64,000 bases of DNA, taken from NCBI GenBank assembly GCA_002197525.1, contig NFUN01000019.1, positions 1 through 64,000 on the forward strand, written 5' to 3'. A program made the position numbers and the translations under genes. Below are positions 3,863-26,486 of this stretch, piece after piece. This DNA is from Acidobacteria subdivision 13 bacterium RH2 MAG17b (lineage in GTDB: Bacteria; Acidobacteriota; Terriglobia; UBA7540). Positions within the stretch are counted from its first letter, which is position 1. Each line of letters begins with the position of its first letter. Below the pieces are notes generated by a model. It had not been told where the DNA came from, searched no databases, and worked only from the letters and a program-made list of their open reading frames with translations.

Positions 3863-5641
3863 ATGAGCGCGACACCCTTCTCCAATCCCCTGCAACCCAG
3901 CGGGCAGGTTCAAATCGGTTCGAACGAGGATTTTATCCACCGGCGTCTTGAAGAAGAGCGGACGCGCCTCGAGCAGGAGGCGGGAATTGAAAGGCGCCCT
4001 ACCGAGCGCTTTCACCGTCCTGTTGAGAACTCTTTCACGCGTTCGCAGCGGGACAAGACCACCATCCTTTTCGGCGGCCTCACTTGGAAGCACGAGAAGC
4101 TTGTGCACGGTGCACTCGAAAGCCTGGGCTACAGATGCGAAGCGCTGCCCGTCCCCAACAAGAAGGCTTTCCAACTGGGCAAAGAATACGGCAACAACGG
4201 CCAATGCAACCCGACCTACTTCACGGTCGGCAATCTCGTCGAGTATGTTCAAGGCCTCGAAGAGAAGGGGCTGAGCAAGAAAGAGATCATTGACCGCTAC
4301 GTCTTTTTCACGGCGGGCGCCTGCGGGCCGTGCCGCTTTGGAATGTACGAAGCGGAGTACCGCCTGGCGCTTCGCAACTCCGGGTTTGACGGATTCCGCG
4401 TTCTGCTCTTCCAGCAAGGCGGCGGCCTGAACCAGGCGGAGGCTGCGGCCGGGCTCGAAATGAACCTGGATTTCTTCCTGGGCATCCTGAACGCGCTCAA
4501 CATAGGCGACGTGGTCAACGACACGGCCTATCAGATTCGCCCTTATGAAGTTAACCCTGGCGAGACGGACCGTGTGCTGGATGAGTGCATGGATCTGCTG
4601 CAAGAAGTCATGCGCCGCAAGCAGCCCTACACGCTCGAAGGTAAGCTGGGCTCTATGCTAAAGAACACGTCGTTCTCAGGCACAGCCGTGATGGTAGGCA
4701 AGTTCCTCAACCAACTCTATGGCGATGATTACACCGCGGCCCTCGAAGAAGTACGCGACCGGTTCAATGCGATTCCCATTGACCGCACGCGGGTGAAGCC
4801 GTTGGTGAAAGTCACCGGGGAGTTCTGGGCGCAGACCACGGAAGGCGACGGCAACTTCAATATGTTCCGCTTCCTTGAAAAGGAAGGCGCGCAAGTGCTG
4901 GTCGAGCCGATCGGGACCTGGATCATGTATATGATCCACCAGGCCAAGCAAAAGATTAAGGATGAAAAGGGGCTGGACCTGATCGCCAACCGCATTTCCA
5001 AATGGAACCTGGCCAAGGTGTTCGGCAGCCATCTGGACACAAAACAGAAGCTTGCCAAGCTTACATTTGCCGAGGCGATCTTCAAGCGCGAATACACCCG
5101 CCTGATTGACGCGCTTGGTTCCGTTGCCCATCACCTCACCGACCAGTACGAAATGCAACGCCTCGGCCATCCCTTCTATAACTCGCGGGCGGGCGGCGGC
5201 GAAGGCCACCTGGAAGTAGCGAAGAACATCTACTATTCGAACAAAGGCCTTGCCCACATGGTGCTCAGCCTCAAACCATTCGGCTGCATGCCTTCAAGTC
5301 AATCCGACGGCGCACAGTCAGCCGTTGTCTCGCAATACAAGGACATGATCTTCCTGCCCGTCGAAACCTCCGGCGAAGGCGACGTGAACGCCCACAGCCG
5401 CGTCCAGATGGCGCTGGGCGAGGCCAAGATTCGATCCAAGAACGAGATGAAGGAAGCTCTTGCAAAAACCGGCACTACGATCGAAGAGATTCAGGAGTTC
5501 GTGAAGGACCATCCTGAGATGCAGCGCCCGATGTATAAATTCGGACACCGCAAGGGCGTGGTGGGCGTGGCCGCGAACTTCGTCCTGCACGCCGCCGAAC
5601 GCATGAAGGCCGAGATGCACGAAACCGTAGCAGTTGGGTAG
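3863..5641 (+). CDS. 2-hydroxyacyl-CoA dehydratase (HgdB/BcrC-like) protein, PlsA/GeR C-terminal-half type
   Basis: 592 aa; GACGPCRFGMYEAEYR, VTGEFWAQTTEGDGNFNMFRFLEKEGAQV and FGCMPSSQSDGAQSAVV motifs; directly upstream of a double activase gene. Confidence 0.75.
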   Translation: MSATPFSNPLQPSGQVQIGSNEDFIHRRLEEERTRLEQEAGIERRPTERFHRPVENSFTRSQRDKTTILFGGLTWKHEKLVHGALESLGYRCEALPVPNKKAFQLGKEYGNNGQCNPTYFTVGNLVEYVQGLEEKGLSKKEIIDRYVFFTAGACGPCRFGMYEAEYRLALRNSGFDGFRVLLFQQGGGLNQAEAAAGLEMNLDFFLGILNALNIGDVVNDTAYQIRPYEVNPGETDRVLDECMDLLQEVMRRKQPYTLEGKLGSMLKNTSFSGTAVMVGKFLNQLYGDDYTAALEEVRDRFNAIPIDRTRVKPLVKVTGEFWAQTTEGDGNFNMFRFLEKEGAQVLVEPIGTWIMYMIHQAKQKIKDEKGLDLIANRISKWNLAKVFGSHLDTKQKLAKLTFAEAIFKREYTRLIDALGSVAHHLTDQYEMQRLGHPFYNSRAGGGEGHLEVAKNIYYSNKGLAHMVLSLKPFGCMPSSQSDGAQSAVVSQYKDMIFLPVETSGEGDVNAHSRVQMALGEAKIRSKNEMKEALAKTGTTIEEIQEFVKDHPEMQRPMYKFGHRKGVVGVAANFVLHAAERMKAEMHETVAVG

Positions 5642-5749
5642 CGCAGCGTTGCTCTACAACTCTGCGACCTATACAAAGAAAAAATGCCGCAGCGTTTCTG
5701 AGGAGCGTAACTCGGCGCTACAAGCACCATGCTTGAGGGAGGCTTCACA

Positions 5750-8700
5750 ATGAATATTCACGGCCCAAAGGACCTGATGGTTGGCTTGGACGTAGGTTCA
5801 ACCACCGTCAAGTCCGTCGTTATGGACCTGAACACGCAGGACATCCTCTGGAGGGACTACCAGAGGCATGACACGAAACAGCCCGAAAAGGTGCTGGAGT
5901 TCCTGAAGCGCATGGAAGCCGAGACGGGGATCAAAGCCGGTGAAACCCGCATTTTCATCACCGGCAGCGGCGGCGGCGGTATCGCTCCGCGCATCGGCGC
6001 TAAGTTCGTGCAGGAAGTGAACGCCGTGTCCCTTGCGGTGGAACACCTCTATCCCGAATGCGGCTCGGTCATCGAGCTGGGCGGGCAGGACGCCAAGATC
6101 ATCATCTTTAAAGAAGATCCTGAAACCGGCCGCAAAAAGAAAATCCCCTCCATGAACGACAAGTGCGCCGGAGGCACGGGCGCCGTGATCGACAAGATCA
6201 ACGCCAAGCTGCGCATCCCCGCCGAGCAACTCTGCCAGATGGGCTACTTCGGCATGAAGCTTCATCCCGTGGCCGGCAAGTGCGGCGTTTTTGCCGAAAC
6301 GGATATTAACGGCCTGCAAAAAAGCGGCGTACCGCCCGATGAGATGATGGCCTCGCTCTTCGAAGCTATCATTCAGCAGAACCTATCGGTGCTCACGCGC
6401 GGCAACACGCTCCTCCCGGTGGTATTGCTGCTTGGCGGCCCGAACACCTACATCACGGGGATGCGCGATTGCTGGCGGCACAATATTCCGAAGGTCTGGG
6501 AGGAGCGCAACACTCCGCTGCCCGAGGGCAAGGACCCAAAGGAACTAATCCAGGTTCCGGAAAACGCTCAATACTTCGCGGCCATCGGTTGCGTGCGGTT
6601 CGGCATGGATGAGGACGCGAACGTCGGCGTCTACCAGGGCTTCGAAAAGCTCGATTGGTACATCAACGTGGGACGGACGGAAGAGAAGCAGAAGCGAGGC
6701 TCGGGAGGGCTTTACAAGACCGAAGACGAGCTCGCAGCCTTCAAGGACCGGTATAAGCCGAATAAGTTCATCCCCAAGACGTTTGAGCCCGGCGAGCACG
6801 TGAAGGCGTTTATGGGCATCGACGGCGGCTCCACTTCCACCAAAGCCGTCCTGCTCAGCGAGCAGGGCGAAGTGATGGTGAAGTGCTATCAACTTTCCAA
6901 GGGCAATCCGCTCGAAGACGCGATGGAGATGTTTTCGAACCTACGCAACCAGGTGGAAGCCCAGGACGCGACGCTCGACCTGCTCGGCATCGGCACCACG
7001 GGCTACGCCAAGGACATCCTGAAGGACGTGCTCCAGGCCGACGTGGCCATCGTTGAAACCGTGGCGCACACGGAAGCCGCGCTGCACTTTTATCCCGACG
7101 CCGACGTGATCTGCGACGTGGGCGGCCAAGACATCAAGCTGATCATCTTGCAGAATGGCCGCGTGAAGGACTTCAAGCTCAACACGCAATGCTCGGCTGG
7201 CAACGGTTACTTCCTGCAGTCCACCTGCGCGGGGTTTGGCCACGACATCAAGGACTACGCAGACCTGGCGTTCAGCGCCAAGGCGATGCCGATGTTCGGC
7301 TACGGCTGCGCCGTCTTTATGCAGTCGGACATCGTGGACTTTCAGCGGCAAGGCTGGAGGCCGGAAGAGATTATGGCCGGGCTCGCCAACGTCCTGCCCA
7401 AGAACATCTGGCTTTACGTCTCTCAGATTCCAAACCTCGCTTCACTCGGAAAAACCTTCATCCTGCAAGGCGGCACGCAGCACAACCTGGCGGCCGTGAA
7501 GGCGCAGGTGGATTTCGTCGAATCCCGCTTCAAAGATAAGGGCGGCAAACCCAACGTCATCGTCCACGAGCACTGCGGAGAGTCCGGCGCCATTGGCGCC
7601 GCGCTCGAATCGCGGCGCCTTTACAATTTTGGGCAGAAGACCCGCTTTATAGGCTTCGAGGCCGTGGAGCAGATTTCCTACGTGACCCATCGCAATGAGG
7701 GTACGCGCTGCTATTTCTGTAAGAATAAGTGCCTGCGGACGTTTATTGACGTGAAGATCGCGGGCGCCGACGAGTCCGCGAAAAAGACCAAGATTCCCAT
7801 ACTCAAAGACGTGAAGCGCCTGATCGTGGGCAATAGCTGCGAAAAGGGCTTGGTTGAAGACGTCGCCGACATGCGCGACATCAAACGCGACCTCGACGCC
7901 ATGAAAAAGAAGAATCCCAACATGGCGGAGGTTGGAGCGCGCTACGCCTTCCGCTCCTATGAGCCTCCCAGCGTGGCCGATCCGCTGCCCAAGTTCACCC
8001 TTACCGCCGGGCAGAAACGGCGCGTGGAACTCATGAAGCGGCGCAAGGACCTGCGCATCGGCGTGCCGCGCATCTTGAACGTCTATTCGGTTATGCCCAT
8101 TTTCAGCGCCTATTTCGAGGCCCTGGGCATCAAAGCCGAAAACATCATTTACTCGGATTATACGAGCGAACAGCTTTACAAGGAGGGCGCAAAGCGCGGC
8201 GCGATCGATCCGTGTTTTCCCTCCAAGGTCGGCATCCCGCACGTTCACAATCTGCTCTACGCGCACCACACCAAGAAGCCGCTCGACATGATTTTTTGCC
8301 CGATGATCGACGACCTGCCGAGCGACCTGAAGTTTGCCCAGTCGCATCGCTCCTGCCCTACCGTGGCTACCACTCCGGAAGCGGTGAAGGCGGCCTTCAC
8401 CAAGGAAGGCGATCTGTTCAAGCAGAACAACATCCTGTATCTTGACACTTTCGTTAATCCGGGCAAGCCGGCGCTTCTGGCAAAGCAGCTCTACGATCAG
8501 TTTGCGGATATCTTCGGGCTTTCCATGGAGGAGAATCTGCGAGCGGTCGCGGAAGGCTACAAAGCTCAGGACAAGTTTATGGACGGCGTCCTACGCGCCC
8601 AGGGCCGCGAAATCCTGAAGGAACTGGAGGCCGAGGATCGTATCGGCATCGTCCTGCTTGGCCGCCCGTACCACAACGATCCAGGCATCAATCACGAGAT

Positions 8701-9274
8701 TCTGGAGGAATTCCAGAAGATCGGCTATCCCGTGCTCACGCTTCAGTCGTTGCCCATCGATGACGACATCCTGCGTCCCTTGTTCGAGGAGGATATGAAG
8801 GCCGGCGTCATCGAGCATCCCATGGACATCCGCGATGTTTGGAAGAACAGCTATAGCGAAAACACGTCGCAGAAGGTTTGGGCCGCCAAGTACACAGCGC
8901 GCCACCCGAACCTGGTGGCGCTCGAACTATCGAGCTTCAAATGCGGGCACGACGCTCCCATTTACTCCGTGGTTGAAGAAACGGTCACCAAATCCGGCAC
9001 TCCGTACTTCTCGTTTAAGGATATTGATGAGAACAAGCCGACCGGCTCCATCAAGATTCGCGTGGAAACCATCGGCTATTTCCTAAAGCGCTACCGCGAA
9101 GACCTCGCCCGCAAAAACCAGAAGCACCGGGAAATCGACGCACGGCTTGACGAGCTAGAGGCTCAACTCCGCGCTGAACTAGGCCCGCCTTCCGTTGGCG
9201 CGCCGCCTGAGCCATACGAGGCCGAAATGCCGGTTGCGGTGAACGCCATACGGGCCATCCGCCGCGAAGAATAG
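5750..9274 (+). CDS. Double BcrA/BadF/BadG-type ATPase activase with DUF2229-like C-terminal region (PlsA/GeR N-terminal-half type)
   Basis: Two ASKHA domains: MVGLDVGSTTVKSVV..ELGGQDAKIII..NDKCAGGTGAVID and FMGIDGGSTSTKAVLL..DVGGQDIKLIIL..NTQCSAGNGYFLQ; CYFCKNKC motif; GVPRILNVYSVMPIFSAYFEALGI region. ATG at 5750 follows gagggagg; the ORF track starts at 5729. Confidence 0.85.
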   Translation: MNIHGPKDLMVGLDVGSTTVKSVVMDLNTQDILWRDYQRHDTKQPEKVLEFLKRMEAETGIKAGETRIFITGSGGGGIAPRIGAKFVQEVNAVSLAVEHLYPECGSVIELGGQDAKIIIFKEDPETGRKKKIPSMNDKCAGGTGAVIDKINAKLRIPAEQLCQMGYFGMKLHPVAGKCGVFAETDINGLQKSGVPPDEMMASLFEAIIQQNLSVLTRGNTLLPVVLLLGGPNTYITGMRDCWRHNIPKVWEERNTPLPEGKDPKELIQVPENAQYFAAIGCVRFGMDEDANVGVYQGFEKLDWYINVGRTEEKQKRGSGGLYKTEDELAAFKDRYKPNKFIPKTFEPGEHVKAFMGIDGGSTSTKAVLLSEQGEVMVKCYQLSKGNPLEDAMEMFSNLRNQVEAQDATLDLLGIGTTGYAKDILKDVLQADVAIVETVAHTEAALHFYPDADVICDVGGQDIKLIILQNGRVKDFKLNTQCSAGNGYFLQSTCAGFGHDIKDYADLAFSAKAMPMFGYGCAVFMQSDIVDFQRQGWRPEEIMAGLANVLPKNIWLYVSQIPNLASLGKTFILQGGTQHNLAAVKAQVDFVESRFKDKGGKPNVIVHEHCGESGAIGAALESRRLYNFGQKTRFIGFEAVEQISYVTHRNEGTRCYFCKNKCLRTFIDVKIAGADESAKKTKIPILKDVKRLIVGNSCEKGLVEDVADMRDIKRDLDAMKKKNPNMAEVGARYAFRSYEPPSVADPLPKFTLTAGQKRRVELMKRRKDLRIGVPRILNVYSVMPIFSAYFEALGIKAENIIYSDYTSEQLYKEGAKRGAIDPCFPSKVGIPHVHNLLYAHHTKKPLDMIFCPMIDDLPSDLKFAQSHRSCPTVATTPEAVKAAFTKEGDLFKQNNILYLDTFVNPGKPALLAKQLYDQFADIFGLSMEENLRAVAEGYKAQDKFMDGVLRAQGREILKELEAEDRIGIVLLGRPYHNDPGINHEILEEFQKIGYPVLTLQSLPIDDDILRPLFEEDMKAGVIEHPMDIRDVWKNSYSENTSQKVWAAKYTARHPNLVALELSSFKCGHDAPIYSVVEETVTKSGTPYFSFKDIDENKPTGSIKIRVETIGYFLKRYREDLARKNQKHREIDARLDELEAQLRAELGPPSVGAPPEPYEAEMPVAVNAIRAIRREE

Positions 9275-10464: not shown

Positions 10465-12552
10465 ATGCCAAGAGATAGAAGACAGCAGATGATGAAGTAT
10501 TTCGACAGTGCGTTATGCTCGTTCGCCGGCGCGACGTTCAATACCATCCAGTTTTTCAACAAGTACAGCCCAAACCCGGCCTTCACTCCCAAATGGTCCG
10601 ATAAGCCTCTGCTGAAATCATGGCAGAAAACCAGGCCTCAACTGGGATTTCCGCGTGAGACTGACTCGCTTTGTCCGGATTGTGTGAAGGAGGCTCGAGA
10701 GAGAATCATCAACGGGGAGCAGGATATAAACACACTCCTCAATGAAAAAGTGGGCGAAATCAAGGCTCAGATTATCGAACGCGACGGGCAGGTCTGGATG
10801 GTGAAAGATTGCCCGATTCACGGCCATTACGAAGACATGATGGCGGTGGATGTGAACTTCCTAGCGTGGATTGAAAAGAACTTCCCAGGCCGTGATATCC
10901 GGGCGCACAATGACGAGAAACTTCACAATCACGGTTCCAGCACCATCCGCCACGGACGCGGCTCCGTGTTGACGGTTGACCTCACCAACCGCTGCAACAT
11001 GATGTGCGACCCGTGCTTTATGGACGCCAACCAAGTCGGCTTCGTGCACGAGCTTACGTGGGAAGATATCACAGAGATTCTGGATAACGCCCTCAAAATC
11101 AAGCCGCGCCGCCAGATGTCCGTGCAGTTTTCGGGTGGTGAGCCCACCATGTCCCCGTACTTCATCGACGCCGTCCGTTACGCCCGCAAGATCGGCTACA
11201 ACAGCGTGCAGGCCGCAACGAACGGAATTGAATTTGCCAAGGACAAGGAATTCTGCCGCCGCGCATTTGAAGCCGGCCTCCGTTATGCTTACCTGCAGTT
11301 CGACGGCGTCGGCAACGATGCCAATAACCACCGGCAAGTGGGCAACCTGTTTGACGTTAAGCTGAAGGCCATCGACAACATGCACGAGGCCGGCATCGAC
11401 ATCATTCTCGTGACGACGCTCGTCAACGGCGTCAACAACGATCAGGTCGGTCCCATCATCAAGTTCGCGCGCGCGAATCCCAAGAAGATCGCTTTCGTCG
11501 CCTTCCAGCCGGTTTCCTTCACTGGCCGCGATGAAGACATCACTCCTGAACGCCGCTTAAGGCAGCGCTACACGCTCTCGCACATGGCGAGGGATGTGAA
11601 AACACAGCTCGGCATCACCGAGCCCACGCGTGACTGGTTCCCTCTTTCGCTCTTCAGCACGTTTGCGGATTTCGCGGACCTGGCTCACGGGCCGGAGTCA
11701 CAGTGGGGTCAGGTGAGTTGCGGATGCCACCCAAACTGCGGCATTGGCACCGCGCTGATGATCAACAAGGAGAACGGCGAGTGGGCGCCTGTGCCCGAGT
11801 TCCTGAACGTGCCGGGGCTGATCAAGGATGTCCAATCGATTACCGACGCGGGGCGGAAAAAGTGGTTTTCTAATCTCATGATGGGACTGGCTCTTCTCAA
11901 GAACTACAAACCTTCAAAGGCCCCGGCCAGCTTGGCGCTGGTGGACATCCTCAAGAAGTTCGATAAATCCTTCGCGCTGCGAGGCGAGGACAAAACCAAG
12001 CAGATTTATGGCGATTCCGGGCCTGACCGCACGCTCGAAGACACCATCAAGAGGCGCCAGGATCCCTGGAACTTCCTCTTCATCGCCGGTATGTGGTTCC
12101 AGGATCTGTTCAACTACGATTTCCGCCGCACCGAAATGTGCATCATCCCTTACGCCACGCAGCAGGGTGAAATCTCATTTTGCGCGTACAACACCGGCAT
12201 CGGCTGGCGGAAGATTATCGAGAACATGCACAAGAACGCGACCGTGGCCGAATGGTACAAGGAGCACGGCAAGCATGAGATCTATGCCCGCGGCAAGAGC
12301 GTGAGCCTGGAAAACTTCGAGCACTCTCTCCAGGTGGATCAAGCCGACGCCGCTCGCGTTCGCGAAGTCGAGCACGACGTTCCGCTCACGGCTTCCGAAG
12401 AAGAACGAGCCCGCCGCAAGGCCGCTTGGGAAGCACAGCAGGTGCGCCAGATGTACGAGGAGATCGTCCTCAAAAAGCCTGCCCCCGAACTCGTGCAGAT
12501 CGGAAGCGCGAACCCTGCTCCTCAGCCGGAAGCGGAGAAGGTTTCCGTCTAA
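10465..12552 (+). CDS. Radical SAM protein, tetraether synthase (Tes/MJ0619)-like / membrane-spanning lipid synthase candidate
   Basis: CX3CX2C (NRCNMMCDPCFMDA) SAM/[4Fe-4S] motif; N-terminal LCPDC...KDCPIHGHYED metal-binding element; FSGGEPTMSP; CGCHPNCGIGTALMIN; 695 aa. Confidence 0.75.
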   Translation: MPRDRRQQMMKYFDSALCSFAGATFNTIQFFNKYSPNPAFTPKWSDKPLLKSWQKTRPQLGFPRETDSLCPDCVKEARERIINGEQDINTLLNEKVGEIKAQIIERDGQVWMVKDCPIHGHYEDMMAVDVNFLAWIEKNFPGRDIRAHNDEKLHNHGSSTIRHGRGSVLTVDLTNRCNMMCDPCFMDANQVGFVHELTWEDITEILDNALKIKPRRQMSVQFSGGEPTMSPYFIDAVRYARKIGYNSVQAATNGIEFAKDKEFCRRAFEAGLRYAYLQFDGVGNDANNHRQVGNLFDVKLKAIDNMHEAGIDIILVTTLVNGVNNDQVGPIIKFARANPKKIAFVAFQPVSFTGRDEDITPERRLRQRYTLSHMARDVKTQLGITEPTRDWFPLSLFSTFADFADLAHGPESQWGQVSCGCHPNCGIGTALMINKENGEWAPVPEFLNVPGLIKDVQSITDAGRKKWFSNLMMGLALLKNYKPSKAPASLALVDILKKFDKSFALRGEDKTKQIYGDSGPDRTLEDTIKRRQDPWNFLFIAGMWFQDLFNYDFRRTEMCIIPYATQQGEISFCAYNTGIGWRKIIENMHKNATVAEWYKEHGKHEIYARGKSVSLENFEHSLQVDQADAARVREVEHDVPLTASEEERARRKAAWEAQQVRQMYEEIVLKKPAPELVQIGSANPAPQPEAEKVSV

Positions 12553-15543: not shown

Positions 15544-16530
15544 CTACAGGCTGGCGCTGCGAGAAACTATGAGGGGTTTTGCTGAGCGCGAAGGGTGCAT
15601 CAACACTGGCAGCTTTCCCGGCAGCACAGTAATCTCCAAAGGCAGCTTTCCCACCGGCTCGCCATCGACTTCGATAAACGTAGGATTCTCGGCGTGGGCC
15701 TCAACCCGGATGCCGCGCAGGTGATGCGCTTTCGGGTGCTGATAGATCTCACCGGAATATAGGACGCGAATATCGCGGATCAGCCGTAGCATGTTCATGT
15801 ACTCGATGACGGTCACCTCCAGCACTCCATCGTCCATCACCGCCGTAGGGCAAGGATGCATTCCTCCACCGTGGAAGCGCCCGTTGCCTACCGCCACGTT
15901 CGTCACGTGATACTCCGCGGGAGCGCCGCCGTCGAGAGTAACCCGCACGGTCCTGCCCCGATAACTCAGTAGCACTCGAAACGTGGCCCAAAGAAAAGCG
16001 GCCCGGCCGCCGAATACGCCGAAGGAATTCCGGGCCCGCTCCGCAACCAAGCCGCCCATTCCGAAGCTGACTAGATTGACGAAGTATCGCTCCTGCGTCT
16101 GCCCGTCTAGCGTCACGAATTTTGCCTTGCCGGCGTCAATGAATTGAAGTTCGCCATTCGCGAGCGTATCGAGCACCTGTTCCAAGCGATTCTGCCCGTT
16201 GAATCCGAACATCCGCTGGAAATCGCCGCCGGTCCCGGCGGGAAGGATGCCCATCGCCGCTCCCATACGCACCAACTCATCGGTTTCGAGGAAGCCGTTC
16301 GCAATCTCATTGAACGTGCCGTCACCGCCGGCACCGACGATCAGATCGAAGCCCTCACCGAGCAGCTCCCGAGTAAGTTGAACGGCGTGGCCCCGGCGTT
16401 CCGTGAACCGCACAGTTACCGGACCCAGCCGCCGCTCGAGCTGGCGCGAAATCTCAGGCCACCGCTTGCCCGTCTTGCCGCTCGCGGAATGCGGATTAAC
16501 GATCGCAGCGATCTTGCGCGTTGGTTTCAT
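15544..16530 (-). CDS. Diacylglycerol/lipid kinase family protein (DagK/YegS-like)
   Basis: IAAIVNPHSASGKTGKRW, IVGAGGDGTFNEIANGF, GILPAGTGGDFQRMF, HPCPTAVMDDGVLEVTVIE motifs. Confidence 0.88.
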   Translation of the reverse strand: MKPTRKIAAIVNPHSASGKTGKRWPEISRQLERRLGPVTVRFTERRGHAVQLTRELLGEGFDLIVGAGGDGTFNEIANGFLETDELVRMGAAMGILPAGTGGDFQRMFGFNGQNRLEQVLDTLANGELQFIDAGKAKFVTLDGQTQERYFVNLVSFGMGGLVAERARNSFGVFGGRAAFLWATFRVLLSYRGRTVRVTLDGGAPAEYHVTNVAVGNGRFHGGGMHPCPTAVMDDGVLEVTVIEYMNMLRLIRDIRVLYSGEIYQHPKAHHLRGIRVEAHAENPTFIEVDGEPVGKLPLEITVLPGKLPVLMHPSRSAKPLIVSRSASL

Positions 16531-17576
16531 GCGCCTGTCATTGTTCCGGAGCGCACCCTTGCTGTGCTCACCCTGTCACTGCCTTCAGCCGGCTGGTGCT
16601 GCAAGTCTTCCACCGTGTCTCTGAGAGTTGCGAGAGGATCGCGAGTAGTAAAGCCCAGTTCGTTACGGGCCTTGCTCGAATCGCAGTACCAGAACAGACT
16701 CGACATCTTAATAGACGCTTCATCCAGGCGAAATGATTTGCCGAACAGTGGAAAAAGGCGGCGCAGCAGCCGCGCGCTCCAGATGGAAAATTGTAAAGAG
16801 GGTTCGAGCGAGGGCGCACTGCGGCCCGCGATTCGCGCGACGGTCTGTATGATCTCGCGAAAAGTCCAGTTGGGTCCGCCCAGCAGATAGCGCTCTCCCG
16901 GCTCGCCGTGTTGCATGGCGGCTCGCAAGCCCGCCGCCGCGTCACGCGCATCCACAAAGTTCAAGCCGCCTCGCGGAATGGCTAAAATCTGGCCTTCCAG
17001 GAAGAGCGCCACGTCTCCCGTCGAGGAGCGCCGGTCGTCGCCCGGCCCGAAAAGCAAACTCGGATTCACCACCACCACCGGCAAGCCGCGCCGGTGAAAG
17101 TAATCGCGCGCCAGCTTTTCGGCGAAGATTTTGCTCAGATAGTACGGCCACTCGCCCACCACATCATTCTTGTACCCGGAGTCTTCATTGTGCACCACAG
17201 GCTCCGGGCCGACGGCAATCGTGCCGGAAGAAGATACCGCCACCACCTTCTTCACGCCCGCCCGTAACGCGGCCTCACAGACGTTCAGGGTCCCTTCGAC
17301 GTGGGTGCGAAAAAGCAGCGCGGAGTCTTTCGGATCGCGGGAAACAACGCCGGCAAGATGATAAATCTCACTCGCGCCCTCGGCGGCGCGAAACACGTCT
17401 TCGCGGGAAACCACGTCACCGCGCACCACCTCAATGCCCGGTTCGTGATCCCATCGTGTCTCCGAGCGGCTGAGCAGGCGCAATCGCGATTGCGGCTCCC
17501 TTGTCCTGATATCTCCCACCAGGTGTTTGCCAAGAAAACCGGTAGCGCCGGTAATCAGGATGGATTTCATGTTCAT
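16527..17576 (-). CDS. NAD-dependent epimerase/dehydratase (extended SDR)
   Basis: ILITGATGFLGKHLV; YLSKIFAEK (YxxxK); overlaps the downstream lipid kinase start by 4 nt. Confidence 0.85.
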   Translation of the reverse strand: MNMKSILITGATGFLGKHLVGDIRTREPQSRLRLLSRSETRWDHEPGIEVVRGDVVSREDVFRAAEGASEIYHLAGVVSRDPKDSALLFRTHVEGTLNVCEAALRAGVKKVVAVSSSGTIAVGPEPVVHNEDSGYKNDVVGEWPYYLSKIFAEKLARDYFHRRGLPVVVVNPSLLFGPGDDRRSSTGDVALFLEGQILAIPRGGLNFVDARDAAAGLRAAMQHGEPGERYLLGGPNWTFREIIQTVARIAGRSAPSLEPSLQFSIWSARLLRRLFPLFGKSFRLDEASIKMSSLFWYCDSSKARNELGFTTRDPLATLRDTVEDLQHQPAEGSDRVSTARVRSGTMTGA

Positions 17577-17620
17577 CCCCGCAGAGGACCGCTGGCAAGA
17601 GCCGCTCGCTCCCCGCCCGG

Positions 17621-18055
17621 TTACCGCCGGAAGGGATTTGTAACACGCAGTTTCGGAAATCTCAGAAAGTCGTCATCGTTCGTCAGGATTTCCTCAACGC
17701 CATGCTCAATCAACAGCGCTGCGATATGCGCGTCGTGCAGCAGATTGCCTGCCACTGGCGAGCCGTGCAAGAGATCATCGACGATAGCGCGGTGTCGCTC
17801 ACCCTCGGAGAGCACCACCACGGAGGGCGAATCCAGGAGCAGCCTCACGGCTTCCCAAGCCGCATGGACCGGTGTGGGCGGATGGAATACTCGCGGGTGT
17901 GTGACGACACGAAGGAACTCGTAAATACACGGCCAAGGCAACGCCCAGGGCTCAGCGCCCGTGCTCAGCCCGGCAAGGAGATCGCGGGCCACCGGATGCT
18001 CCGGCGGTTCCTGGCGGCGAGCATACACCAGGATGTTCGTATCCACGGCCCGCAT
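17621..18055 (-). CDS. PIN-domain ribonuclease toxin (VapC-like)
   Basis: MRAVDTNILVYARR..., HDAHIAALLIEHGVEEILTNDDDFLRFP; start overlaps antitoxin stop. Confidence 0.85.
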   Translation of the reverse strand: MRAVDTNILVYARRQEPPEHPVARDLLAGLSTGAEPWALPWPCIYEFLRVVTHPRVFHPPTPVHAAWEAVRLLLDSPSVVVLSEGERHRAIVDDLLHGSPVAGNLLHDAHIAALLIEHGVEEILTNDDDFLRFPKLRVTNPFRR

Positions 18056-18291
18056 CAGCGGCCGTCCATCAGATCAAACAAGGATTCGCGGTCATTCAGT
18101 CGCGCGCCAGGCTGGATGGTTCCAAGAGGGTCCACCTTCCAGTCAAACCGGTATTTGGGTCTCTGCTCAGGGCGATCCAGAGTGCGGCGCAACAGTTCAT
18201 TCACTACCTGGCGCAAGGTTGTCCCCCTTGCAGCAGCTTGGCGCTTCAACTCGCGAAATACCCGGTCATCCAGCTCAATAGTAGTTCTCAT
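18055..18291 (-). CDS. Ribbon-helix-helix antitoxin (VapB-like)
   Basis: MRTTIELDDRVFRELKRQAAARGTTLRQVVNELLRRTL; TGATG junction with the PIN gene. Confidence 0.8.
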   Translation of the reverse strand: MRTTIELDDRVFRELKRQAAARGTTLRQVVNELLRRTLDRPEQRPKYRFDWKVDPLGTIQPGARLNDRESLFDLMDGR

Positions 18292-18381
18292 ACACAGAAG
18301 CATATTCAAGATACATATTTATGTCAATCGTCATCCAGTCGCTTCTTTGCGGCCCACGCCAAACAGTTTTTCATCAATCTC

Positions 18382-20073
18382 TCAAACGGTCTGCGGTACT
18401 CCCGCCACGTCCGCCATCAGGATGGGCGCGAAATGCATCATCGTGACGCTCGGCTTGCGCCCAACATGCGATTCCGCCATGGCGAGCGCCTCATTCATAT
18501 TGGGCGCCGTCTCCCATCCCATCAGCTTGGCGGCGCGCTTCGATTCCGCTCCAACGCAGATCACCTTGCCCGTGTGCGCGCGGCCGTTTTCGCCCCAATA
18601 CCACATGTAGAACGGATGCACGCCGTGGTAGGCGTTGCCCGTGCGGTACATGCGGATGTAATCGGGGTTGTGCGCGAACTCCGCCTCATACTTCCGCTGC
18701 AGTTCCAAGGAGTCGCGCGTCTCGGGCAGCAGCCGGTGGAAGAATTCGATATAAGACGGATGATGGAGGGGATCAAATTCGTCATAAAGCGGATGGGTGA
18801 TGATGAGTACGCCATTCTTCTTCACCACCGGCATGCCGCGGTACATGTTGTGAAAGTAACCGAGCGCCATCACCTGCACGAGGAGGGGGTTCAGAATAGA
18901 GTTCACATTATATGGGGAAACGAACGGGATGCCATAAACAACCACATCCGACTGCTGGTCCACCGGCACGCAGTACTGCGCGTAGCAGTATGCGAGGGTT
19001 TTCGCGTGGGTAGGCAACGTAGCGCCCGCGTGGACCGCGATCATCGCGTACGGAGCCGGAATGCCGAACAGTATCTTCCTCTTGAGGCTTCGTGAAAGCT
19101 TGCTCAAACCGTGGCGGGTAGCGCTGAACATCATGCGGTCGTAGGCGTTGTGACGGTCTTCGTTCTTTACGAAAAAAGCCATGCGGGGATCGAACATCGC
19201 GTTATTCAGCACCGTCTCGATGTGAAACACTTTCAGGTGATCGTTGATCACCTTGCCGATGCGGTCGCAGGAGCGGCCCATTTCCGACCGCGTGTGGTCG
19301 AAGTATGAATCGCACTTCAGTATCGTCTGGGGTGTGTGATGGGCTTGGAGCGTGGGGTAATCGCAAAGCCCGACTCCCACCGACTTATTGCCGCCATCCA
19401 TGGGTACCAGATTGATGTTCACGTAAATCAAAAGATCGGATTCGGCGGCTCGGCGGTTCAAGCGCACATGCTCGCCATGCTCCGTCACTCCGAGTTCCAC
19501 CATGCCACCAGGAGCCTCGCCGTCGTGGTTGTACAAGCGACCGGGATGATAGGCGCGGAAAATCCGCGAGCCTACCGCATGCTCGATCTCCGGTGCGGTC
19601 ATGCGGCGGTGAAACGAGGTCGCAACGATGATGTGGACGTCGTCAACACCCTTGGCGGCGAGCAACTCGAGCACGATCGTCAGGACGGACTCCCGGACAT
19701 CCGGGCGCTTCATGGGCGGCAGCGGCAAAGAAATGTCATCTATGGCGATAGTCGCCTTCATGCCCGGCTTGAGGAGAGACTCGAGCGGCTCCATGCCTTC
19801 CGGGTGGTCTAGCGCGTAGCGGATGGCGGCAAGGCGGTCGCGGAGGCCTGGGATGGTGGGCTTTGGGTAAACCACGCGGGCGCCTGCCGGCATTTCCACT
19901 TCGAGCAGATCCTCGCCGTACCACATCAGCCGCGGGCGCGAGCTGGATTCAAGATGTACTACACACCCGTCAGGAGAAACTAACGCATCACGGCCCACCG
20001 CATTCGGCGCGGGATCGGTGGATTCGAGGATTTGGTCGAGCGCCTTGTGCGGCACGTCAAGATACGTGGACAT
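18382..20073 (-). CDS. LarA-like (DUF2088/lactate racemase N-domain) protein
   Basis: [73 protein letters not shown] start overlaps the end of the HAD gene; ORF track starts at 20127. Confidence 0.7.
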
Positions 20074-20782
20074 GATTTCCTCGCTCCACTCCCGGCTTGC
20101 TCCGGCCCTGGCGGCCGAGTTCGACAATCGGCCAGCCTCGCGCCTTCGCCACTTTCCTGAGCCGCGCGTCGGGGTTGACGGCGGACGGCTTTCCCACAGC
20201 CTCGAGCATGGGAACGTCGGAAAAACTATCCGAGTACGCCTTTGCCTGCGCGAGTTCGGCGCGATGATTCTGGCATTCCTTCTCCATCACCTCAACTTTT
20301 CCCTCTTCGGCAAGCAAGGGCTGCGCCACTTCTCCGGTGGCGACGCCGTTTTCAAAGATAAGTGAATTGCACACGAGCCCGTCAAAACCGAAGTAACGCA
20401 CCACCGGAGCCAAAATTGAACCGATCTCACCCGTCACCAAAACCACGCGAAAACCCTGTTGCCGGTCCTGCTGAACCAAATCGAGCGCTCCGGGGTATAT
20501 GCCGGGGCGTATCACCCGCTCAAAAAGTTCTTCCGACTGCTGTTCGAGCCAGGCGCGGCTCACACCACGATATTCACGGAAGAAAACCTGGTTGAAAAGC
20601 CGCCGGGAAAGGCGGTCCAGCAAGAGATAGGTGGGAACACTCGAAATGAGCCTCAAGTTCTTCCACGTCGACATGGCGCGCGAAGGCAGGCGCTGAATCA
20701 GGGAGGCGTAACGAGTAACGATGTTGCTCGCCACGAGCGTTCCGTCAAAATCGTAAAAGGCGATTCGCACTGTTTCCTTCAT
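20057..20782 (-). CDS. HAD-IB family phosphatase
   Basis: FYDFDGTLVASN, VVLVTGEIGSIL, AYSDSFSDVPMLEAVGKPSAVNPD motifs. Confidence 0.82.
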   Translation of the reverse strand: MKETVRIAFYDFDGTLVASNIVTRYASLIQRLPSRAMSTWKNLRLISSVPTYLLLDRLSRRLFNQVFFREYRGVSRAWLEQQSEELFERVIRPGIYPGALDLVQQDRQQGFRVVLVTGEIGSILAPVVRYFGFDGLVCNSLIFENGVATGEVAQPLLAEEGKVEVMEKECQNHRAELAQAKAYSDSFSDVPMLEAVGKPSAVNPDARLRKVAKARGWPIVELGRQGRSKPGVERGNHVHVS

Positions 20783-20949
20783 CTCTCATGTTCGTTGGGT
20801 GGCGCATCCATATCGGTTTGTGCGATGTATGCGATTTAATTCACGTTCGCAGACATCGAAAAGCTCCGATGTCTGCGCCACCCGATTTCGTATAGCCATT
20901 TGAGCCTCGCTACACTAACGAGGCTCCGCCTCAGACCGCCGAAGCATGG

Positions 20950-21021
20950 CCCCCTCACCCGTCCCGCTACGCAGTCCACCCTCTCCCCCGGCTGGGGGAG
21001 AGGGTCTGGGAGTGAGGGGGC
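20950..21021. repeat. CCCTCACCC-type palindromic intergenic repeat
   Basis: cccctcacccgtcccgc..accctctcccccggctgggggagagggt..gtgaggggg; related core at 47262-47334. Confidence 0.7.
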
Positions 21022-21067
21022 GGCGCAAACTTAACTCATTCACATCCAGTTTCGCAACTCTAGGATT

Positions 21068-21715
21068 CTAGCTTTGCGCGGTGGCCGCCTCCCGCCGCTC
21101 GCCGATATGAGCAAGGTTTTTCTTGTGCCGCCAAAACAGAAAGGCGGTCACGCCGGCGGCGCACAACCAGTCATCCCGTCCTTCAAAAAAAACCATCATC
21201 ACCACGAACAGCGCCCAGGCAGAGAGCGAAGCGATGGCGCCTGCTTCTTTCAACTTCAACATCTTGCTACCCGCCACTCGCGTGGCCGCGAAAAAGGCCA
21301 GGGCGATGGCAGCGTAGACCGGATAGAGCACCAGCATCACACCCGCCGAAGTGGCGATGCCCTTGCCTCCATTGAACTTCAGAAAGGGCGAATAACAGTG
21401 CCCGAGAATAGCGGCAAATCCAAAAAGCCAATCCTGCCAGACGGCGGTCGCGCCGTGGCGCACCAACAGCAGAGCCACAATGCCCTTGCCCATGTCCCCG
21501 ATCAACGCCACGAGCGCGCGCGGCACGCTCACGCGCAGCACGTTGTTGAACCCTGGATTGCCCGAGCCCACCTTGCGGATGTCAACACCGGAGCCCGCCA
21601 TGGCCAGCACGGCGAAGGGGATCGAACCGCAAGCAAAACATATTAGAATTCGAATCAGCATAACGACCGGCGTCTCCACCGGTTTCTTTCGGTGCTGAGC
21701 ACAGTGCCGCACCAT
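21068..21715 (-). CDS. plsY: Glycerol-3-phosphate acyltransferase PlsY
   Basis: CFACGSIPFAVL, IRKVGSGNPGFNNVLR, GHCYSPFLKFNGGKGIATSAGVML, RHKKNLAHIGERRE; an alternative start is at 21661. Confidence 0.85.
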   Translation of the reverse strand: MVRHCAQHRKKPVETPVVMLIRILICFACGSIPFAVLAMAGSGVDIRKVGSGNPGFNNVLRVSVPRALVALIGDMGKGIVALLLVRHGATAVWQDWLFGFAAILGHCYSPFLKFNGGKGIATSAGVMLVLYPVYAAIALAFFAATRVAGSKMLKLKEAGAIASLSAWALFVVMMVFFEGRDDWLCAAGVTAFLFWRHKKNLAHIGERREAATAQS

Positions 21716-21726
21716 CGTTCAATCCA

Positions 21727-24573
21727 TCAACCGGAAAGTTTCGCCAGGGATTCCCGGACGAATTCCCGCAATTGAGTCATGTCTTCCCTGCCGCCGGACT
21801 CCGGCTGAATCGCGTCGCCAATCACGAGTTTTGGAGATGCGTCCCGTCCCGGCTCACCGGAGCTTTCCAGTCCGATCTGTGAGCTGCGAACCTTTGCCTC
21901 CCATTCTCCGTCCGGCCACAGGATACCTTCGGTTCCCTGGAACCGAACCGGGCGTATCGGCGTGGAAGCCGAAGTAGCAGCATGGAACGCTTCCAGCCGG
22001 AAGCGCGAACGGGTGGGCGGAGCGCCTACTGGTCCGTCCGGAAACACCAGCACCGGGCAGCCGCGCTCAAGCGTCTGCTGAATCCGTTCCCGCAAAGTTC
22101 CGCCCGGCGGAGAGTCCGCGCTTGAGACTGCCAGAACCAGCAGCGGCTCCAGCAAAAAACAGGCTGCTGGCGGCAAATCGCGAAGCACGCGAGCGTCGGC
22201 AAAACGAAACCATCCGGGGAGGTACGCCGCTGCCACCAGCGGATCGAGATGCCCAGCGCGGTTTGAAATCCAGACCGCGGGTCCGCCGCGGACCGCTTGC
22301 AGTTTCTCCACCACGCGCACCGAGTGGCCACCCAGCCGCAAAATGACCCGCGCGGAGACCCGCGCAATAAAAGCGGAAGATCGCTCTCCCGGAGCCAGCC
22401 GCACCGCGAGACCGCCGAGTCTCGCCACGGTGCCGAAACTCGCGGCACGATAGGCGCGATGCAATCGAGCTGCTGCGTTTCGCGCGCCAAGCCTCAGCCA
22501 ATTGCGAGAGTTCTCCAGCCACAGACGGGCCATTTGCACCCACGGGCGGCGCTTGCTGCCCATGAGCTGGCCGTTCAGGTAAAGCGCCCGGGTAGCGTTA
22601 CGGCGAATCTTGCCGCTGCTGGTTTTGGGAACGATCTGCGGCTCGACCAGCACCACCTTATCCGGAGGGATTCCGAGAACCGCATCCACCCTTTTGACAA
22701 TCTCTTCTTCGATCCGCCGCAGTTCTTCAGGCCTGGCAGCGCGCGTTTCCGCGACCACCACCAGCCGCTCCGTGCCGGTCTGCGGGTCCAAGGCGCCGAA
22801 CGCAGCCACGCAGCCTTTGCGCACACCGGCGACTTCCGCCGCCGCCGCTTCGATTTCTTGGGGAATAATGTTGCGGCCCGATTTGATGATGCAATCCTTC
22901 AGCCGCCCGGTGACGTAAAGCTCGCCGCCTGCCCAATAACCGAGATCGCCCGAATCCATCCATCCGTCCGCTGTGATGACGGCAGCGCTGGCCGCAGGAT
23001 TGCGATAATAACCCGCTGTCCGCGAAGGCCCACGGAAGAATATCCGCCCTTGCACGCGTTCTCCCAGCTCCCGGCCCTCCTCATCGAGAACCTTCACTTC
23101 ATGGCCGCGCATGGGCCGTCCGTTTGCGACAAAGCGCAGAACGTTCGTCTCGCCGGGAGGGGCGGGCGCAGCCTTACCTTCGGATTCGAAGAGTTCGCGC
23201 CTGATCGTATCAATCACCGGGACGCGATTCATGGGAGTGAACGTGAGCGCCACGGAAGATTCAGCCAGACCGTAACAGGGCACAAAACTTTCCGCGCGGA
23301 AGCCGTAAGGCTTGAAGCGCTCTGCAAATCGCGCCAGAGTGTCTGGCAAGACGGCTTCGCCGGCGTTAATGGCCACTCGCCAACGGCTCAGGTCCAGCCC
23401 TTCGAGCACCGCATCCGGAATCTTGCGCGCGCATAGCTCGTAGGAAAAGTTTGGCGCCGGGCACAGCGACCCGCGCGAGTCATTCATGGCCCAAAGCCAA
23501 CGCTCCGGGCGGCTCAGGAAAGCGAGCGGCGACATCAGCGTGATTGGCGCGCCCTGATACACGCTGAAAAGCCAGGAGCCGATCAGTCCCATGTCGTGAT
23601 AGAGCGGCAGCCAACTCACCACAATGTCGTCCCGCCGGAACTGGACGGATTCGCCGATGCCGCGCACATTGGCAAGCACATTCGAGTGCGTCAGCACGAC
23701 GCCTTTCGGATCACCCGTGCTGCCTGACGTGTACTGAATGAAGGCGATTTCGGCGGGCTCGACGCCGTGCGAAGGAAGCCGCGCTCCGCTGCCCGCAAGC
23801 GCTTCCACGCTCGTCACCTCAATGAGGCTCGGAATGCTGAGCCGCATGATCTGCGAAACGGCGCGAACGCGGTCAAAGCTGATCAGGAAGCGGACCTCCG
23901 CATTGCGCAGGATCAGGACTTGGCGGCGCACGTACTCTTCGATCTTATCAGGGCGCGCCGGAGGATAAATGGGAACGGCCACGCCGCCCGCGAGCATGAC
24001 GCCGAAGAACGCGTAGAAAAAATCGGCGCAGGTGGGCAACATGATGGCCACCGTCTCGTCCGGCCGCAGTCCCGCGTCACGCAGACCGCCTGCCACTCGC
24101 GAGGCCGTTTCAAGCAACTGCCCGTAAGTGATGTCCCGGCCCGATTCCTCTTCGAGAAGGTGAATCTGCACGCGGTCAGGCTCAATCTGGGCGTGATGGC
24201 GCAGAACCTCCGGCCAGCTCCGGGCAGCGGCCGGAGCTTCCGGCGCGTCGCGGGCGGGCTGAACGATGCGGTAGCGCTCTTGGCGACCCGCCGCCTTGTC
24301 CCCATCGAAAATCGCGCGCGCCCAATCGCCGGGCGTTTCCGCCTCCTGCGCCGCTTCTTCCGGAAGCCGGGTCTTGAAGCGCGCTTCAAGGCGCACGAGC
24401 AATTCCACCCGCTCCAGGCTGCCCAGGCCCAAATCACGGTCGAGCAGCGAATTCATGGAGAGGCTTTCCGCCGCCCGCTCCGATCCCAGCTCAAGCAGCA
24501 GTTCCCGGATCACCTCCAAGATTTGCCCTTCGACGGAATCGGATTCAATCTGCTGTTTTGGAACAGTTGGCAT
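21727..24573 (-). CDS. Fusion protein: acyl carrier domain + fatty-acyl-AMP ligase + PlsC-like acyltransferase domain
   Basis: ACP DRDLGLGSLERVELLVRLE; AMP-binding FIQYTSGSTGDPKGVVLTHSNV, GLAESSVALTFTP, DSGDLGYWAGGELYVTGRLKDCIIKSGRNIIPQEIE; C-terminal VWISNRAGHLDPLVAAAYLP...VLVFPDGPVG. The MPTVPKQQ start at 24573 is preferred over the track start at 24762. Confidence 0.82.
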   Translation of the reverse strand: MPTVPKQQIESDSVEGQILEVIRELLLELGSERAAESLSMNSLLDRDLGLGSLERVELLVRLEARFKTRLPEEAAQEAETPGDWARAIFDGDKAAGRQERYRIVQPARDAPEAPAAARSWPEVLRHHAQIEPDRVQIHLLEEESGRDITYGQLLETASRVAGGLRDAGLRPDETVAIMLPTCADFFYAFFGVMLAGGVAVPIYPPARPDKIEEYVRRQVLILRNAEVRFLISFDRVRAVSQIMRLSIPSLIEVTSVEALAGSGARLPSHGVEPAEIAFIQYTSGSTGDPKGVVLTHSNVLANVRGIGESVQFRRDDIVVSWLPLYHDMGLIGSWLFSVYQGAPITLMSPLAFLSRPERWLWAMNDSRGSLCPAPNFSYELCARKIPDAVLEGLDLSRWRVAINAGEAVLPDTLARFAERFKPYGFRAESFVPCYGLAESSVALTFTPMNRVPVIDTIRRELFESEGKAAPAPPGETNVLRFVANGRPMRGHEVKVLDEEGRELGERVQGRIFFRGPSRTAGYYRNPAASAAVITADGWMDSGDLGYWAGGELYVTGRLKDCIIKSGRNIIPQEIEAAAAEVAGVRKGCVAAFGALDPQTGTERLVVVAETRAARPEELRRIEEEIVKRVDAVLGIPPDKVVLVEPQIVPKTSSGKIRRNATRALYLNGQLMGSKRRPWVQMARLWLENSRNWLRLGARNAAARLHRAYRAASFGTVARLGGLAVRLAPGERSSAFIARVSARVILRLGGHSVRVVEKLQAVRGGPAVWISNRAGHLDPLVAAAYLPGWFRFADARVLRDLPPAACFLLEPLLVLAVSSADSPPGGTLRERIQQTLERGCPVLVFPDGPVGAPPTRSRFRLEAFHAATSASTPIRPVRFQGTEGILWPDGEWEAKVRSSQIGLESSGEPGRDASPKLVIGDAIQPESGGREDMTQLREFVRESLAKLSG

Positions 24574-24670
24574 GGAATGGTTTGTCTTTCGCGACGCGTT
24601 CTGCGGCTGTGCCGCTTGCTGTGCGGAAAGGCTTCGCCTTTCCGGCGCCCGGCAATCCTTCCCAACCTGG

Positions 24671-24713
24671 TTTTCTTTGGGCGCGAAGGCTGAGCCTTCG
24701 CGCCCAAAGAAAA
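24671..24713. repeat. Perfect 19-bp-arm hairpin
   Basis: ttttctttgggcgcgaagg-ctgag-ccttcgcgcccaaagaaaa between the FAR and ACP/FAAL genes. Confidence 0.85.
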
Positions 24714-24911
24714 TTATAAGAATGTGCGTCCATGGCCGGAAAGCCATAGGCATTCCGCACAACGGGGCGGCGCAGCCGCTCCCACATCGGAATGTGCGCT
24801 AATGGACGGGCTTGCGGTGAGGCGGCGATGCTGCAACCGTGAACCCCTCACCCAACTTACCAGTTTGCCATGAGACAGATGAGATTCATGAAACTGTTTT
24901 TTTTCGACGGC

Positions 24912-26486
24912 TCAGATGCTAAAGGTCCAGTCCCGGACGGCCTCAGGCTGAACCCATTTTTCGATCCCGGCGATCTGGTGGTGAATCCAATAGCGCTCCC
25001 AATCAATCTGCTCCGGTTGCCAAGAAAGCCGTTCCCGGTCGCTCGGGGCAAGAGCGGAGTAGGCGGCGCGGATATTTTCCGACTCGAAGACGTAACGGTT
25101 CTGCAACACAAAGGGCAGGTACTGCTCAAGCGTCTGTTCGCGGAATTTGGCTTGCAAATCGAGCTTGCGCAACTCCGCCGACCAGCTAGCTAGCCATTTT
25201 CCCCCCGGCAATCCCGCCTTTTCAAGAGCAGTCTGGCCGCCCGCTAGCCAACGCTGAGAGCGCGCGATATTACCCTGCAGGCGAAGCCGGCGAGATCGAG
25301 CATCCTCAGCCGAGACAAACCGGGCCTTGCCTCCTCGCCGCGCACCGCCCAGCCAGTCCATGAACCGCCGCCCCAGCGCTCCGTTTCCATTGCGTGCGCC
25401 GCGCCTTCGCGCCTCTCGATCCAGCAGCTCCACAATGGCGCCAAGGGTGCACGGATTCACATCCGCCGAGCCAAGTTGGTAAACCGCCCGATGCCGCTTT
25501 TGAAGCAGCAGCGAAGCCACCGCAAGAATTGCCGCCGCTGTCATATCCACCGGGACAATTTCGAGCGGCGCATCTTCCCGCACCGGCCAATCCTTGAGTC
25601 CACCGAGCGCCATTAGAACGAGCGGCGCGGCGGTGCGGCCGCCCTCAATCCAGCCGGGAAAAGGAAATTGCCAGGCACTCTCCACAATGGCCGGACGGAC
25701 GATTGCGTACTCCAGGCCCGGCGCCGAAGCGATGATCTGTTCGCCGAGACTCTTGGAATAAGTGTAAGTGTTCACCCATCCCCAGTCCGCGGCTCGCTGC
25801 CTGCCGAGCGCAGTCAGCCGTTGGGCCAGCTCCCGGGAACGGCGGCCCTCCGCAGCGCCGTTCGAGCCTTCTGACTCATAAATCTGGCGGATAATCTCTC
25901 GCGCGCGCTGAATCTCTTCGGCGTGATTGAAGCGCTGGTCCTCCGGACCGCGACGGTGAGGGTAGAAACCGGGAATCGGTTCGGTTTCCTCAACCAGCCC
26001 GTCCCTCTCGCCAGAAACAAAGGCCGTCGAAACGTGCAGCAGCGGCGCTCCGAGGCTTTGCGCGAACTCGACGACATTCGCCACTCCATCGACGTTCGAG
26101 CTGAAGGAGTCATCGAGCGGAGGAAAGAAGTCCACTCGGCCGGCGCAATTCAGCACCAGCCCGACGCGCCCTGCGAGGCGTCCGCAATCCGCCGCATCCA
26201 GACCGCATCGCGGCGCGCTGATGTCCCCGGACCATAGGGTGATCCGGCTGTCCAGAAACTCCCTGCCCTTCGCGGCGGCAATCCCGGAAAGCGCCGGAGA
26301 TGCCAGCACCTCATCGGCGAAGCGCTGGGCAGCGGACAAATCCGCTCGCGGACGAACCAAAATGTGGAGGTGTTTAAGGTTCGGGTACCGGTCCAGAAGC
26401 ATTCCCAGGATCACTTTCCCCAGGAAGCCGTTGGCCCCGGTCAGAAAAAGCTCGCGTTCTTGGAATATTTGACTGGATTCGGTCAA
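24912..26486 (-). CDS. Fatty acyl(-ACP/CoA) reductase, thioester-reductase/Male-sterility-type NAD-binding
   Basis: ELFLTGANGFLGKVILGMLLDRYPNLKHLHILVRP; WSGDISAPRCGL; VLNCAGRVDFFPPLDDSFSSNVDGVANVVEFAQ; YTYSKSLGEQI. TTG start at 26486 proposed; the longer ORF in the track runs into the divergent gene. Confidence 0.78.
   Translation of the reverse strand: MTESSQIFQERELFLTGANGFLGKVILGMLLDRYPNLKHLHILVRPRADLSAAQRFADEVLASPALSGIAAAKGREFLDSRITLWSGDISAPRCGLDAADCGRLAGRVGLVLNCAGRVDFFPPLDDSFSSNVDGVANVVEFAQSLGAPLLHVSTAFVSGERDGLVEETEPIPGFYPHRRGPEDQRFNHAEEIQRAREIIRQIYESEGSNGAAEGRRSRELAQRLTALGRQRAADWGWVNTYTYSKSLGEQIIASAPGLEYAIVRPAIVESAWQFPFPGWIEGGRTAAPLVLMALGGLKDWPVREDAPLEIVPVDMTAAAILAVASLLLQKRHRAVYQLGSADVNPCTLGAIVELLDREARRRGARNGNGALGRRFMDWLGGARRGGKARFVSAEDARSRRLRLQGNIARSQRWLAGGQTALEKAGLPGGKWLASWSAELRKLDLQAKFREQTLEQYLPFVLQNRYVFESENIRAAYSALAPSDRERLSWQPEQIDWERYWIHHQIAGIEKWVQPEAVRDWTFSI

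Follow-up and report, generated by a model that had tools for sequence, protein, structure and literature searches.

A probable ether-lipid gene cluster with a LarA homologue in group 13 Acidobacteria

How is the alkyl-ether bond of bacterial glycerolipids formed when the enzyme AGPS is absent? Eukaryotes make ether lipids by the dihydroxyacetone phosphate (DHAP) pathway, through FAR1, GNPAT, AGPS and alkyl-DHAP reductase; for bacteria of the ElbD type, to our knowledge, the AGPS-free step of alkyl-ether bond formation has never been identified. Acidobacteria are suspected producers of branched glycerol dialkyl glycerol tetraethers (brGDGTs), ether lipids that are used as soil thermometers and whose ether-forming enzymes are unsettled. 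The question is raised by a minus-strand gene cluster (positions 15544-26486) in a 64,000-nucleotide stretch, hereafter the window, of contig NFUN01000019.1 from Acidobacteria subdivision 13 bacterium RH2 MAG17b, which is a soil acidobacterium. The window genome is a 2.8 Mb metagenome-assembled genome (MAG), 89.7% complete, of Acidobacteria group 13 (gp13). The cluster probably builds ether-linked membrane lipids. Since some relatives have the animal ether-bond enzyme in place of its module containing a nickel-type enzyme, this module can be put forward as a testable suspect in the search for the bacterial ether-forming step.

The cluster and the apparent exchange of its HAD-LarA-SDR module

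Gene families were assigned by Pfam and NCBIfam profiles, with scores well over the cut-offs. In transcription order, all on the minus strand, the cluster begins with a fatty acyl reductase (FAR; 24912-26486, TTG start, 524 aa), which matches PF07993 at 177 bits, carries a C-terminal Sterile domain and has the fatty acyl-CoA reductase 7eoz as its nearest solved chain (E 2e-37). A protein of 948 aa (21727-24573) follows, joining an acyl carrier protein (ACP) domain with its serine in DRDLGLGSLERVELL, an AMP-binding part whose closest subfamily is fatty acyl-AMP ligase (FAAL), and a PlsC domain with NRx4D, not NHx4D. The remaining genes encode a divergent PlsY acyltransferase (21068-21715; PF02660, 131 bits), a HAD-IB family phosphatase (20057-20782), a LarA homologue of the nickel-pincer-nucleotide type (18382-20073), a PIN-domain protein that is probably a passenger (17621-18055), a short-chain dehydrogenase/reductase (SDR) of the epimerase/dehydratase type (16527-17576; PF01370, closest NCBIfam HpnA) and a YegS/DAGK-type lipid kinase recognised by its family profile (15544-16530). 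The LarA open reading frame (ORF) reaches 20127, and a start at the ATG at 20073 agrees with homologues. The spacing is operon-like: 11 bp separate the FAAL and PlsY genes, the HAD and LarA genes overlap, and those of the SDR and the kinase overlap by 4 bp. The sequence-only reading had named seven of these genes, and their strand, coordinates and order were all confirmed by the ORFs and profiles; it had overlooked the PIN gene, the divergence of PlsY, the core role of LarA and the module exchange described below. A 79% identical PIN gene occupies the equal position in one locus of another genus (L046) and was not seen in other relatives.

The set of FAR, ACP-FAAL-PlsC, PlsY, HAD, LarA, SDR and DAGK is found, complete or partial, in 25 genomes belonging to 14 genera, as is the FAAL-type protein at an identity of at least 60%. 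Besides the window, the full series in the same order was found at L037, L042, L046, L050, L052 and L054, and the remaining loci are cut at contig ends, interrupted or one gene short; the genes flanking the block in the window lie outside the conserved part. Because the gene order is kept in many relatives, the arrangement is not due to chance, and on neighbourhood conservation the sequence-only reading held up. In a congener (L036, G002:C151) the cluster is broken: FAR is followed, after a gap of 3.4 kb, by FAAL and PlsY, with genes for radical SAM, ApbE and Na/H-exchanger proteins next on the opposite strand, and HAD, LarA, SDR and DAGK are not nearby.

The most informative variants carry AGPS. 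A protein of about 600 aa hit by PF02913 lies within the cluster of genomes G019 (L041) and G027 (L056); in G014 (L278) such a protein adjoins DAGK. The two such proteins that were tested match guinea-pig AGPS over nearly the full length at 557-565 bits, the next non-AGPS match scoring 105-110, and they bear the motif SHHHGVG. Each of the three AGPS genes is adjoined by an SDR of the adh_short type, and alkyl-DHAP reductases are SDRs (PMC13256971). At these three loci HAD, LarA and the epimerase-type SDR are absent, so that the cluster of G019 reads FAR-FAAL-PlsY-AGPS-SDR-DAGK. AGPS occurs at none of the 26 loci with LarA and at three of the four without it (p 0.001, the genomes not being independent). 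The FAAL tree places G019 with the LarA-bearing G007 and G023 (support 100/96) and has G027 and G014 as a separate branch; hence the swap took place twice or involved lateral transfer. The window genome, 90% complete, contains no AGPS: its PF02913 proteins are of the GlcD/YdiJ type only, lack the HHH motif and score 42-87 bits, where true AGPS reaches 1268-1379. HAD-LarA-SDR thus appears to be exchangeable with AGPS-SDR, and this replacement argues most strongly both for ether lipids as the cluster's product and for HAD-LarA-SDR taking over the AGPS step.

Relation to ElbD and the elb operon

The sequence-only reading had described the locus as a disassembled ElbD-type ether pathway. To place it, the FAR profile was run over 396 genomes of the phylum, the comparison being made with ElbD-like proteins of Acidobacteriota. 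FAR occurs as a standalone protein inside HAD-LarA-FAR-SDR-DAGK clusters (L182, L183, L185), and as the N-terminus of ElbD-like FAR-ligase-ACP-PlsC proteins of about 1480 aa inside HAD-LarA-ElbD-SDR clusters (L186-L192; no SDR was seen at L189). In the midpoint-rooted FAR tree these ElbD-like FARs group with the standalone and gp13 FARs (support 94/86), which assigns the FAR of the cluster to the ElbD lineage, and the HAD-IB and PF01370 SDR proteins of the window are orthologous to those beside the ElbD-like genes. The order HAD-LarA-ElbD-SDR in Acidobacteriota matches the published order elbB-elbC-elbD-elbE of Myxococcus xanthus, in which elbC is described only as of unknown function; the HAD and SDR of the window are the counterparts of ElbB and ElbE by position and family (PMC9131029). 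Ether lipids of M. xanthus need ElbD and possibly ElbE (PMC9131029, reviewing Lorenzen et al. 2014), and the entire elb operon is said to be present in several subdivision-4 Acidobacteria (PMC10087280). A scan of genome contigs gave no Myxococcota among its matches, plasmid searches with LarA and FAR gave zero matches, and so did scans of viral contigs with LarA and ElbD-like alignments.

Two further FAR arrangements were seen in the sample. A second, more distant ElbD-like FAR-ligase-ACP-PlsC set of Acidobacteriota (L193-L195, L199, L200) mostly lacks LarA nearby; DAGK adjoins it in three loci and AGPS in L199. At L196, L197, L198 and L201 a HAD-like region is fused to the N-terminus of FAR (about 800 aa), beside more FAR-like and acyl-CoA ligase genes.

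The activating protein has another origin. The ligase tree separates the gp13 FAAL from the ElbD-like ligases (support 100/100), to which its identity is about 25%. With tri-domain ACP-FAAL-PlsC proteins from many phyla it shares about 50%, and in the tree it nests among such proteins, which come from Acidobacteriota, Proteobacteria, Actinomycetota and other groups. The ACP is N-terminal in the gp13 protein and follows the ligase in ElbD-like proteins. In every one of the 22 gp13 copies that can be read through the PlsC motif, Arg replaces the catalytic His (NRx4D; a 23rd, L055, ends just after NR), and the FPEG motif is eroded; NHx4D is intact in 74 tri-domain relatives and in the ElbD-like proteins. 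The PlsC domain of the gp13 protein is degenerate in sequence and predicted to be inactive. Tri-domain proteins with an intact PlsC motif are themselves widespread (L104-L181; Proteobacteria, Actinomycetota, Nitrospirota, Entotheonella and others), and their gene surroundings do not include FAR. Ligase phylogeny, the ACP-first order and the His-to-Arg change led us to reject the ACP-FAAL-PlsC protein as a fragment of ElbD, as the sequence-only reading would have it: with its ligase outside the ElbD clade, gp13 did not take ElbD apart. The link to ether lipids survives, through the shared HAD-LarA-FAR-SDR set, the sister FARs and the AGPS of relatives' clusters. By these comparisons gp13 combines an elb-like FAR and auxiliary genes with an activating protein from another family, and the locus is best read as related to the elb clusters but rebuilt.

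The LarA homologue and the divergent PlsY

The LarA protein matches NF052592 (LarAH14/15/16) at 805 bits, the cut-off being 740. This group is without known activity, LarAH14 having been inactive on the substrates tested (PMC7583248). Lys248, His173 and the HH at 263-264 are invariant in the alignment; the first catalytic His, the cofactor Lys and the Ni-ligand His are kept. In agreement with the description of groups 14 and 15 (PMC12611868), the protein lacks the second catalytic His: the 10-residue stretch before the cofactor Lys has no His in any of the 24 sequences. By fold it is closest to the single-His LarA-like structures 9q3k and 9q3j, as judged from a low-confidence model (pLDDT 57) that serves for fold assignment only. 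LarA is the best-conserved cluster protein (74-84% identity), and FAR or ElbD is present in 39 of the 40 genomes of the phylum sample that have LarA, within 10 kb in 35 (formal p 6e-37, inflated by shared ancestry); this pattern marks LarA as a core member of the cluster and not a bystander. LarC is present in the window genome (C73) and in 36 of the 40 LarA-bearing genomes, compared with 246 of the 356 LarA-less ones (p 0.005). As proof of cofactor use it was set aside as weak, since so many LarA-less genomes have it too. Four LarA-bearing genomes of family f30 (G198, G245, G283, G339), at least 97% complete, gave no LarC match at E 1e-20; either their LarC is divergent or split, or their LarA works without the usual cofactor. 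Among the papers available to the search, none combined 'lactate racemase' with 'ether lipid'.

PlsY of the cluster aligns to 5xj5 and belongs to the family, and its motif 1 reads GSGNPGFNN in place of the usual GSGx(x)GATN. GFNN replaces GATN in all 18 cluster PlsYs aligned and also in PlsY of two standalone-FAR clusters; GATN is kept in 12 canonical members of the family. In Aquifex PlsY, Ala40 and Thr41 touch the acyl carbonyl and the T41A mutant is severely impaired (PMC5700162). With GFNN in place of GATN, the enzyme may plausibly differ in its donor, acceptor or product. Among the 15 cluster-bearing genomes at least 90% complete the cluster PlsY is the only one found in 12, and a canonical PlsY occurs in two, a partial second hit in G031 being left out, against three of four cluster-less genomes of equal completeness (p 0.04). 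Over all 38 genomes, with partial hits counted and relatedness ignored, it occurs in about 4 of the 24 with the cluster and in 11 of the 14 lacking it (p 3e-4). Being usually the sole PlsY, it suggests that the cluster may feed bulk glycerolipid synthesis. PlsX is present in the window genome and general among relatives, and two canonical PlsC proteins are encoded elsewhere in the window genome.

Proposed route, rival explanations and known systems

We lean towards reading the gp13 locus as an alkyl-ether glycerolipid cluster in which HAD-LarA-SDR does the job of AGPS and its reductase. FAAL would load its own ACP with a fatty acid, FAR would turn the acyl group into a fatty alcohol, and PlsY would form a 1-acyl backbone (acyl-glycerol 3-phosphate or acyl-DHAP) from PlsX-derived acyl-phosphate. 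HAD-LarA-SDR would then swap the acyl ester for an alkyl ether, giving 1-O-alkyl-glycerol or its phosphate, any of the three being a candidate for making the C-O-C bond; a housekeeping LPAAT would add the sn-2 chain and the lipid kinase would (re)phosphorylate. The FAAL-ACP, FAR, PlsY and kinase steps are proposed because of the protein families, and ether formation because of the AGPS swap and elb genetics. A plasmalogen end product is unlikely here, since the desaturase CarF/PEDS1, present in 9 of the 396 genomes of the phylum sample, was not found in the window genome. A bolder version, which we regard as rather unlikely, makes the single-His LarA itself an AGPS-independent ether synthase using nickel-pincer hidden redox chemistry: glycerol C2 would be transiently oxidised, the leaving group at C1 exchanged for the fatty alcohol, and the hydride returned. 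If this were true and elbC of Myxococcus were the same gene, the ElbD pathway as a whole would gain its missing ether-forming step.

Several points weigh against assigning ether formation to the module. The absence of HAD-LarA-SDR from G014, G019 and G027 is established at the locus only, and copies elsewhere in these genomes are possible; G027 shows no FAR near its cluster, the pieces of G014 lie on separate contigs, and the swap is known from three MAGs only. LarA enzymes of known function are racemases or epimerases acting on 2-hydroxy acids (PMC11770544, PMC7583248), and a route to ether lipids has no evident intermediate of that kind. It is accordingly possible, though doubtful, that within an elb-type ether cluster LarA is an accessory, for instance converting a 2-hydroxy acid destined for a head group or chain, that the bond is made on the FAR/SDR side or by an unknown enzyme, and that the AGPS genomes run a separate complete pathway; the M. 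xanthus requirement for ElbD and possibly ElbE only (PMC9131029) would fit. Such a role agrees poorly with LarA being the most conserved member, with its company of FAR or ElbD across three architectures, with the missing second His needed for ordinary racemisation, and with its absence at exactly the loci that have AGPS.

The window also holds, on the plus strand, a PlsA/Ger-like protein of 1181 aa with BcrAD_BadFG and DUF2229 domains (5729-9274), which lies about 6 kb from the cluster and could make ethers without it, and a Tes-type radical SAM protein of 695 aa (10465-12552; tetraether synthase 7tol, E 7e-61). These could form ethers and couple tails, and the cluster, whose PlsY is usually the only one, would serve ordinary glycerolipid synthesis, fatty-acid recycling and fatty alcohol formation. 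We consider this improbable: among 20 Tes loci the Ger-like gene is beside Tes only in G002, Tes is near-universal in the class (58 of 61 related genomes), cluster-less genomes included, and AGPS inside relatives' clusters points to ether chemistry there. Tes is thus a general feature of the class, without a link to the cluster. In congener G002 the gene at 3863-5641 likewise adjoins Tes, which neither gene does at the other 18 loci examined. A single brGDGT locus of Tes, the Ger-like genes and the cluster was rejected, as proximity to the cluster is not conserved. FAR and FAAL are known from wax-ester and secondary-metabolite clusters too. That the present genes form such a cluster is very improbable, given that they include no wax synthase, ketosynthase or nonribosomal peptide synthetase condensation domain, that PlsY and DAGK are glycerolipid enzymes, that FAR groups with ElbD-like FARs, and that AGPS can stand in for part of the set.

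Together, the conserved association between ElbD/FAR and an orphan nickel-pincer enzyme and the apparent AGPS swap provide a concrete candidate for the ether-forming step. The cluster also gives the LarAH14-16 group a metabolic context, offers a divergent PlsY, and cautions surveys that seek full-length ElbD alone, which gp13 does not show.

Of the known systems, the elb operon (elbA-elbE of M. xanthus and its subdivision-4 homologues) shares with the gp13 cluster an ElbD-lineage FAR, HAD, an epimerase-type SDR, ligase, ACP and a PlsC-type domain. Its ElbD is a single polypeptide, whereas the gp13 FAR is a separate gene, the ligase, ACP and PlsC derive from a different protein family, are headed by ACP and include a dead PlsC motif, and PlsY and a lipid kinase are added; the gene in the position of elbC is in Acidobacteriota a LarA homologue. 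The tri-domain proteins of Proteobacteria, Acidobacteriota and Actinomycetota agree with the gp13 protein in domain order and ligase identity, but those examined keep NHx4D, and at the 78 loci outside gp13 there is no FAR, PlsY, HAD or LarA nearby. LarA groups 14/15/16 and single-His LarA-like proteins (PMC7583248, PMC12611868) resemble ours in the NF052592 match, the cofactor residues and the missing second His; the solved single-His proteins (group 17, with Asn, proposed for carbohydrate metabolism) differ, the LarA studied here standing in an ether-lipid gene context. The ester-to-ether reductases PlsA/PlsR and Ger (PMC13274423, PMC11868695) share the product class, but the enzymes are unrelated and none lies inside the cluster. 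With the DHAP pathway the cluster has in common FAR, a backbone acyltransferase and an SDR, the G019 cluster being a near-complete set; the window genome differs in having HAD-LarA-SDR instead of AGPS, and its acyltransferase is of the PlsY type, not GNPAT.

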